From positions 1 through 34,974 of the IMG/VR virus record IMGVR_UViG_3300012147_000045: 34,974 nt of DNA. One strand, given 5' to 3'. The notes below the pieces were generated by a model. It was not told the origin of the DNA, did not search any database, and saw only the letters and a list, made by a program, of their open reading frames with translations. Each line of letters opens with the position of its first letter. Positions within the stretch are counted from its first letter, which is position 1. This DNA is from a virus. Made by a program: the position numbers and the translations under genes. Below are positions 25,711 to 34,602 of this stretch, piece after piece.

Positions 25711-26105
25711 GTACTATGGTTGATTTATATGGTTCAACCATAAAGACCAAAATTATTTATACACTCAAACATACTTACTCTTGTGTATATATTCAGTTTT
25801 ATTAAAGTCGTAATGTCATTCACTCTAATATTGAATACCCATGTTCTGGAAATAATTCTTTAAATTAAATTATAGGTAATCCCCACATTATCGATTACCC
25901 AACCCAATGACCTATGCAGTTGTGATTCTGTTTTAAAGGATTTTCCTCGGTTTTGGATTTATAACTTAATCGTTTTTTATCTTTACGTTTCAAAGATAGT
26001 AAGCAGGTTTGGTTAGTCGTCTTTCCTACTAGATGATGTTTCATTTTTTATCAAAGGGTCTGTTATTCATCATTCACTTAACTGACCATGTTAAGTAACA
26101 TCTGA

Positions 26106-26252
26106 TCAAGAGGTTAGATTCGAACCAACACACAAAGGTTGAATTTACGGACTATTTTTATTTAATATAAATCACCTACCTTATACCTGGTTACCGAACT
26201 TTGAATTAAATTAATTCGTTAGCAAGCTGTACTACCGTTGTACTACTCTTGA
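26106..26252 (-). other. Interrupted or enlarged tRNA-like gene
   Basis: The 5' part has exact tRNA geometry: acceptor TCAAGAG, TA, D arm GTAC-AACGGTA-GTAC, then GCTTG. The 3' part has T arm GTTGG-TTCGAAT-CTAAC directly next to CTCTTGA, the perfect complement of the 5' acceptor. But the two are 147 nt apart end to end, about 70 more than a normal tRNA, and no 3' anticodon strand is clear. Confidence 0.5.
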
Positions 26253-26607
26253 ATTTAAAATAAAATGCTGAGATTATACATTTAATGTTCCCACTTTCGT
26301 TTCCGTACTCTTTGGGTGCAAACCCATCGATTAAAAACTTATCCACCTCAATCTTTCGAGGTATGAAAACAACACCGCCTTTTTTAAAGAGTGGCTTTTC
26401 TCTTATCACTTTGAAACTACTCGACTTTCATCCTACCCTTGATCTTGCGAACCATTCATTCCTGCTAAGGAATTAGGTGTGGAATTCAATCAATTCACAT
26501 CTACCTTGCGAGTGTCCGTGAACCTACATTACCGTAAACGATTGTAGGATTAGGTGATTTGTTTTTCCAAAGTTGTTAGGGTCTTTGCTGTTATCATTAT
26601 TAATGAC

Positions 26608-26679
26608 GGAATGTGCAGGAGTTGAACCTACGACTTTTTGTTTAACATACAAATGCTCTACCAACTGAGCTAACTTTCC
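26608..26679 (-). tRNA. tRNA-Asn (GTT)
   Basis: Canonical D arm (AGCTCAGTTGGTAGAGC), anticodon stem TTTGT/ACAAA with loop ATGTTAA, T arm GTAGG-TTCAACT-CCTGC. The acceptor has one A-A mismatch. It sits inside an 8-bp flanking helix (26705-26712 with 26574-26581), so it may be part of a larger RNA before processing. Confidence 0.93.
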
Positions 26680-27455
26680 TAAGTTATTTATTCACCTCCT
26701 CGTGCCCTAACACCGTTTCATACTATTTTGTAGTACAAAATGCGGGACGAAAAATACGTTTCGGTCTACCAAACCTACTGTGCGATACTTCAAGATTACT
26801 TTGGATTCATTATGATTCCTTTTACCTTTTGTATTGATTACTTGCTCTAATACTGGTGGTACTTGAACTCATAATCTATATCTTATCTACTTTTGGTTTT
26901 GTTAGTTTAGTATGTAATAACAAAAGGAACTACCCTTATTTAGAAAAACCCACCGTTGGCCAGTCTTTACTATATCCCGTTCCACGGGGAGTTATTACCT
27001 AACTTTCTCCATATCTACCACGTTGACGGTGATAACCTGTTTGGCACAGCTAAGATGATACTTGTTTAAATAAACCAATGAAACTTGGCGGAGGGATGTG
27101 AACCCCTCCTTTCGATACTTTACAGTACCATATCTTTGTTATAAAACCGTAGTCCTATAGTAGGATGTCAAACCACCCTTATAAAATTAATCAGTTGGTA
27201 TCCTCTGATAACAACCTATATACTTCAATCCGAATTCCAATTCCGTACCTAGTAGTTATATACTTTAATCCAAGACCAAGCTCGAATCGTTTCTATAAAA
27301 CATATATAAATTATTTTGTTAATTTATTTTTTCAATCTGTAATTTCAATGAACATCGTTTGTTATATTGGGTATATATATATATATACAAATTTCCCAAA
27401 CGTAATATTTTTTTAAAAAAAATACCAAATTATTTATTAGTATTTTTCTACTCTG

Positions 27456-29962: not shown

Positions 29963-29973
29963 GTACGTGATTC

Positions 29974-29995
29974 AAAAATTCCTAGAAATTAGGAA
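29974..29995 (-). terminator. Hairpin after the tmRNA tag
   Basis: TTCCTA-ATTTC-TAGGAA followed by five Ts, on the minus strand, just after the tag stop. It may be the 3' end of the coding piece. Confidence 0.5.
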
Positions 29996-30006
29996 TCAAA
30001 CAGTTT

Positions 30007-30030
30007 TTAGGCTGCAATTGCAAAGTTTCC
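30007..30030 (-). other. tmRNA tag reading frame
   Basis: Codons for GNFAIAA then TAA if the resume codon is GGA, as Gly is usual in Bacteroidetes tmRNAs; an upstream GTA would give VKGNFAIAA. The hydrophobic AIAA ending fits a ClpXP-type degradation tag (compare ALAA). The exact resume codon is uncertain. Confidence 0.7.
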
Positions 30031-30217
30031 TTTTACAGTAATATCAATCTCAATTATCACATCTTCTACTGTCAAAACAATCCAACCCCATATTTAAAAT
30101 CTATACTAAGTTACGTTATGTGTACACATAAGAGGTTTTACTTAGTCTATGTGGAGTTGCAGGGTAACGAACCCTGGTCCAGTAAATTGTTAATAATCAT
30201 CAACAATTAATATTTGT

Positions 30218-30298
30218 AGTACGGATAGGATTCGAACCTATAACTCTAGACCGTTTTAATGGGTGACCTACCGTTTTGCCATTATAAGATACCGTACT
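30218..30298 (-). tRNA. tRNA, anticodon uncertain (irregular anticodon arm)
   Basis: Acceptor AGTACGG/CCGTACT and T arm ATAGG-TTCGAAT-CCTAT are perfect, and the D loop has GG. At 81 nt it is 8-10 nt too long for class I. The anticodon arm is best drawn as TAG+ACC paired with GGT+CTA with a GTC bulge and loop CATTAAAAC, suggesting TAA (Leu), but this is unsure. Confidence 0.6.
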
Positions 30299-34509: not shown

Positions 34510-34529
34510 AATTGATAATTGAAATTTGA

Positions 34530-34602
34530 TCTCCTTGTCGGGATCGAACCGACTCTGTTCCAGGTTACAAATCTGGTGCACCACCTCTTATGCGTAAGGA
34601 GA
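34530..34602 (-). tRNA. tRNA-Thr (TGT)
   Basis: Acceptor TCTCCTT/AAGGAGA, D stem GCAT/GTGC, anticodon loop TTTGTAA (one mismatch at the top of the stem), T arm GTCGG-TTCGATC-CCGAC. Confidence 0.9.

Follow-up and report, generated by a model that had tools for sequence, protein, structure and literature searches.

A compact circularly permuted tmRNA gene in a probable Bacteroidota phage

Introduction

So far, permuted tmRNA has been associated with only three lineages of bacteria and with the phages of those lineages. The Rfam family RF04321 (tmRNA_permuted) merges the alpha, beta and cyano two-piece tmRNAs (PMC11915505), and its seed sequences come from Alphaproteobacteria, Betaproteobacteria and Cyanobacteria, with none from Bacteroidota. 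The same source lists 11,946 permuted sequences and 79 bacteriophage tmRNA sequences, and 53 two-piece tmRNA calls in phage genomes are counted in a paper that also covers the two-piece tmRNA of the OM43 phage Melnitz and SAR11 phages (PMC9004378). The Melnitz/SAR11 type is alphaproteobacterial, and similar phage genes that we sampled carry A-N-D tags behind a longer pre-tag segment. The Bacteroidota tmRNA (RF00023) is a one-piece, non-permuted molecule with a Gly resume codon GGC in many members, a UUGAC D motif in part of the phylum, and tags such as GENNYALAA. For Maribacter phage Panino, a tmRNA/SsrA gene has been described without use of the word permuted (PMC11590407).

Here we analyze a permuted tmRNA gene on a 34,974-nt viral stretch (the window; IMG/VR record IMGVR_UViG_3300012147_000045). 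It shares with RF04321 the gene order, the tRNA-like domain, P2, and a resume codon followed by a tag ending in Ala-Ala; unlike RF04321, the class to which it belongs has a Gly resume codon, located some 60 nt from the 5′ end. Unlike the Melnitz-like genes it lacks the A-N-D tag and the longer pre-tag segment, though it is likewise phage-encoded. Its class shares the Gly codon and the UUGAC motif with the Bacteroidota one-piece gene, but differs from it in permutation, tag and spacing. A full-text search of openly accessible papers for a two-piece tmRNA in a Bacteroidetes phage returned no result. Permuted phage tmRNAs are already known, while a compact group with Gly tags does not appear to be described within the open literature searched.

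Results

The window carries a permuted tmRNA gene on its minus strand

A sequence-only reading of the window had proposed a permuted tmRNA with fully pairing acceptor strands, a P2 across the same join and a tag ending in AIAA. All of these elements were found where it had placed them, on the minus strand (Table 1). By coordinates and by the RF04321 alignment, the T arm and 3′ acceptor strand lie upstream of the 5′ acceptor strand and tag. The acceptor stem forms 7/7 pairs with the G3-U70 wobble and A73 present, and P2 forms 7/7 pairs across the join of the two pieces. No CCA is encoded, since CAU follows A73, and the two neighboring tRNA-Arg genes whose 3′ ends were read likewise have no encoded CCA. 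By analogy with known two-piece tmRNAs, the 62-nt intervening stretch would be removed.

Table 1. Features of the permuted tmRNA gene (window positions)
Feature	Positions	Strand	Basis or remark
Permuted tmRNA gene core	30007..30198	(-)	RF04321 match 53.7 bits; self-excluding class model 86.9 bits
Possible P2 extension, 5′ strand GAUUAUUA	30191..30198	(-)	Read directly; pairable with 30059-30052, by inspection only
P2 5′ strand UUUACUG	30180..30186	(-)	7/7 pairs with 30071-30065; P2 covarying in relatives
T arm CAGGG - UUCGUUA - CCCUG	30160..30176	(-)	Rfam match and direct coordinates
Acceptor 3′ strand CAACUCC (30159-30153) and discriminator A73 (30152)	30152..30159	(-)	
Intervening sequence, 62 nt, with stable hairpin	30090..30151	(-)	Expected to be removed
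Acceptor 5′ strand GGGGUUG	30083..30089	(-)	G3-U70 wobble with 30155
D-like region GAUUGUUUUGA	30072..30082	(-)	Rfam and class-model alignments
P2 3′ strand CAGUAGA	30065..30071	(-)	In predicted fold; covaries in relatives
Possible P2 extension, 3′ strand UGAUAAUU	30052..30059	(-)	Read directly
Tag frame GGA AAC UUU GCA AUU GCA GCC = GNFAIAA, resume codon GGA	30010..30030	(-)	
Tag stop codon UAA	30007..30009	(-)	
Terminator-like hairpin AUUCCUA/UAGGAAU and U run, 3′ of tag	29974..29996	(-)	Direct reading; hairpin in computed fold

The covariance-model search supports this assignment: the RF04321 match (E = 6e-8, for the window searched against all 4227 families) lies above the curated gathering score of 47 bits, and the presence of a permuted tmRNA in the window is confirmed. 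None of the alpha, beta and cyano subtype models (RF01849, RF01850, RF01851) exceeded its cut-off on the window; only RF01850 (beta_tmRNA) appeared, at 31 bits against a cut-off of 84. We also built a class model from 35 other phage or prophage sequences, with the window left out. On the window gene the E-value of this model was about 1e-16; its scores elsewhere were 59–74 bits for seven phage-borne permuted tmRNAs that fall outside the class and 23–40 bits for four of the one-piece form. The minimum-energy fold of the gene contains the T stem, acceptor and P2 (z = -1.67), which by itself is weak support for a tmRNA. ARAGORN listed 18 tRNAs on the window and missed the permuted tmRNA.

Pairing and covariation are conserved among relatives

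Permuted tmRNAs are common in phages, since the permuted form accounted for 76 of the 121 tmRNAs found by scanning viral contigs for a T-arm pattern, a set to which the window had been added. Scans for the UUGAC D motif returned at least 119 stretches in one case and 31 in the other, and in the 154 that were parsed, which include repeat copies of the window's own gene, the acceptor was paired at 7/7 positions in 154/154 among the matches listed. Viral contigs hold at least about 150 similar compact permuted tmRNAs. The pairing proposed between 30153-30159 and 30083-30089 is kept throughout the class, with 7/7 acceptor pairs in all 113 distinct members.

Among these 113 members, acceptor pairs 5 and 6 covary freely; the T stem is paired in 98–100%, with pairs 1 and 2 covarying; and P2 pairs 4–7, which also covary, are paired in 83–90% compared to 45–62% expected. 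The search pattern preset GGGG, CTCC, GGGTTCG and TTGACA, so those columns are not evidence, but the covarying positions were free. In a formal count over 35 sequences, two of them from Bacteroidota prophage loci and none from the window, 94.3% of cells were paired with a covariation of 0.42, a value reached in 0/500 shuffles, and sliding the strands out of register abolished the covariation. P2 contains a 1-nt bulge in most relatives, whereas the window P2 has none. At the DNA level, searching phage records with the window tmRNA gave only a weak T-arm match to the crAss-like phage cr50_1 and chance tailspike matches.

The class is compact, with a Gly resume codon

The resume codon of the window gene lies at +59 from the 5′ end, in accordance with the 53 long-IVS members of the class (+56 to +63, median 60), in which Gly is the first residue of 23/25 parsed tags. 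The corresponding position is about 95 nt from the 5′ end in Bacteroidota one-piece tmRNAs, mostly +89 to +97 with one at +102, and mostly +80 to +108 in other permuted phage genes sampled. Because only about 34 nt separate P2 from the resume codon, PK1, which would lie between them, is probably missing from the window gene, judged by length. A short-IVS subgroup (tags such as GEQVEMAMAA; L134, L163, L170 and similar loci) has 18% SD-like starts, and for that reason Bacteroidota hosts are not claimed for the whole subgroup. At these loci, the sequence 3′ of the tag can be read as an H-type pseudoknot.

The window tag stands in the context UAAAA|GGA ... GCA GCC UAA, with an Ala-Ala end followed by the stop. 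The bases ahead of GGA are GUAAAA, placing UAA at -5 to -3 as in relatives, and the held-out class model aligns GGA to the class resume codon GGC. Tags of Bacteroidota one-piece tmRNAs commonly begin with Gly, and those of the other sampled permuted phage genes rarely do. The window copy is somewhat divergent: its resume codon is GGA in place of GGC, its D region reads UG for GG, its tag has 7 residues, and T-loop position 58 is U, where 112/113 class rows have A. A TAnnTTTG promoter motif was found 36–52 nt upstream of the T arm in 20/110 relatives, compared to 1.5 expected, and not within 90 nt upstream of the window gene.

The phage and its likely hosts

Baseplate wedge, CHAP endolysin, helicase and PhoH genes mark the window as part of a tailed-phage genome, and it is extended by a 70.5-kb contig (IMGVR_UViG_3300012031_000010), the sole near-identical contig found. 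Shine-Dalgarno-like sites were found in 0/26 long ORFs of the window and likewise in 0/45 further ORFs on pieces of the longer contig, part of which overlap the window. The tail-fibre-like protein of that contig has matches in Maribacter phages only, and the baseplate gene has its best matches in a Microcystis phage, an uncultured phage and Flavobacterium phages. From the SD-less genes and the Maribacter and Flavobacterium phage relatives, the phage looks Bacteroidota-directed, in line with the Bacteroidetes-type phage of the earlier reading. Relatives by baseplate gene (49 records, many of them fragments) yielded no further full tmRNA match besides the longer contig, so there was no sign of the tmRNA gene moving together with the structural genes.

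Compact permuted tmRNAs also occur in named phages. Maribacter phage Panino, Chryseobacterium phage MA9V-3 and cr50_1 carry permuted genes scoring 62.2, 64.7 and 60.3 bits with RF04321, all annotated simply as tmRNA/SsrA. The Panino gene (PP540027.1), permuted by our reading, lies in a tRNA array and has its resume codon at +60 and a Gly tag, GKVMNVSFAPTVRQFA, that is longer than the window's. Other Bacteroidota phages, Cellulophaga phi38:1 and Calle_1, have a one-piece tmRNA.

One form of the pattern, run over 84,980 genomes, matched three times: in Sunxiuqinia indica, in Draconibacterium aestuarii and in a small Pelagibacter MAG contig. The Sunxiuqinia locus includes RecT and antirepressor genes; at the Draconibacterium locus, a putative prophage, the only candidates for phage genes are regulators. 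Each of the two genomes additionally holds an intact one-piece tmRNA (157 and 164 bits) on a contig other than that of the prophage copy. RF04321 exceeded its cut-off in 2/396 sampled Bacteroidota genomes, a lower bound because few candidates were scored per genome and a Synechococcus control was missed at the same threshold; these were Sunxiuqinia and a second genome (G283), where the match adjoins phage-like DNA polymerase and helicase genes. In all, three phage-like loci in Bacteroidota genomes carry the compact permuted form. With a one-piece tmRNA in 40/41 sampled Bacteroidota genomes and both above-cut-off permuted matches at phage-like loci, the view that these hosts usually carry the one-piece form holds. 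The sequence-only reading had called a permuted gene unexpected in a Bacteroidota phage; the case is not isolated, given Panino, MA9V-3 and cr50_1.

Discussion

We consider it likely that the product of this circularly permuted gene is a two-piece tmRNA, of the compact kind seen in Bacteroidota phages, that works in ribosome rescue. The gene order, the pairings and their covariation in relatives, the resume-codon context, the tag, and the occurrence in Bacteroidota phages and prophage loci are observed; transcription, processing, charging, tagging and any benefit to the phage we infer. The precursor would be transcribed as part of the tRNA array, host tRNA-processing enzymes would cut out the intervening stretch, and CCA would be added onto the acceptor piece, which AlaRS could charge via G3-U70 while the acceptor stem and P2 keep the two pieces together. 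Together with SmpB, the tmRNA would enter stalled ribosomes, resume at the Gly codon and append GNFAIAA, such that during infection ribosomes would be recycled and unfinished proteins degraded. The cutting into two pieces, Ala charging and use of SmpB are proposed by analogy with known two-piece tmRNAs (PMC11915505, PMC9004378). Since a search of 16 records, among them the window and its longer contig, revealed no SmpB gene, the SmpB is presumed to be the host's.

The divergent features of the window copy leave room for decay, in which a formerly working permuted tmRNA would be losing its function in this phage. U58, UG in the D region and the short tag are rare in the class, and the RF04321 score is just modestly over the cut-off. 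We nevertheless regard this as unlikely, as the acceptor (7/7, with G3-U70), T stem (5/5) and P2 (7/7) are intact, as are the UAA context, the open tag ending in AIAA and the stop, and the class-model score falls among those of bona fide members. The gene could instead act as a decoy, titrating SmpB or tmRNA function of the host. Such a role has been put forward for mycobacteriophage DS6A, whose molecule consists of the tRNA-like domain only (PMC4131195, citing Mao et al. 2009). The window gene has a short coding piece, and a tRNA-like domain of any kind could bind SmpB. Unlike the DS6A molecule, however, the window gene and most relatives have a resume codon, tag and stop, and the distance to the resume codon is constant, making a decoy improbable. 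We give very little credence to the suggestion made by the authors for Panino (PMC11590407), if extended to this gene, of a phage copy that serves site-specific integration into the host tmRNA gene and restores the disrupted gene: a gene that is compact and permuted is no replacement for a disrupted one-piece gene of the host, and in Sunxiuqinia and Draconibacterium the one-piece gene is undisrupted and on a different contig.

Returning to a working two-piece tmRNA, its origin could lie within Bacteroidota. Tentatively, and with somewhat more doubt than belief, we suggest that the Bacteroidota phages hold a separate, fourth lineage of permuted tmRNA, one that arose not from the alpha, beta or cyano permuted genes but from a one-piece gene of Bacteroidota, losing PK1 on the way. 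The Gly resume codons, UUGAC motif and short spacer fit such an origin. In a 54-column tree of tRNA-like domains the group falls beside some Bacteroidota one-piece genes, though this tree is too short, partly biased by the search pattern, and does not resolve the placement. The spread of a compact form among Bacteroidota phages, one of them crAss-like, alongside sampled hosts with the one-piece gene would mean that phages keep up an architecture of their own for a core ribosome-rescue RNA. Natural tmRNAs that apparently lack PK1 offer test cases for what trans-translation needs, and the isolated phages Panino and MA9V-3 could be used to ask why phages carry tmRNA.

Several other RNA elements were observed nearby and in a relative. 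Just upstream of the tmRNA, a weak tRNA match (window 30217-30277, minus strand, 19.1 bits) might, through its 3′ processing, set the 5′ end of the tmRNA acceptor piece. Also on the minus strand, a tRNA at 34529-34602 scores 40.6 bits with Rfam and was missed by ARAGORN, and a 148-nt tRNA-like element at 26105-26252 (32 bits) looks like a tRNA into which about 75 nt have been inserted. In cr50_1, a RAGATH-22 match upstream of the permuted tmRNA (L358, 1-136) scores 109.8 bits, below the cut-off of 120.3, and is clipped at the stretch end. The window of this apparently Bacteroidota-directed phage also contains a GOLLD RNA at 26265-26753 on the minus strand (162.5 bits, cut-off 150), with a tRNA-Asn inside it at 26607-26679.
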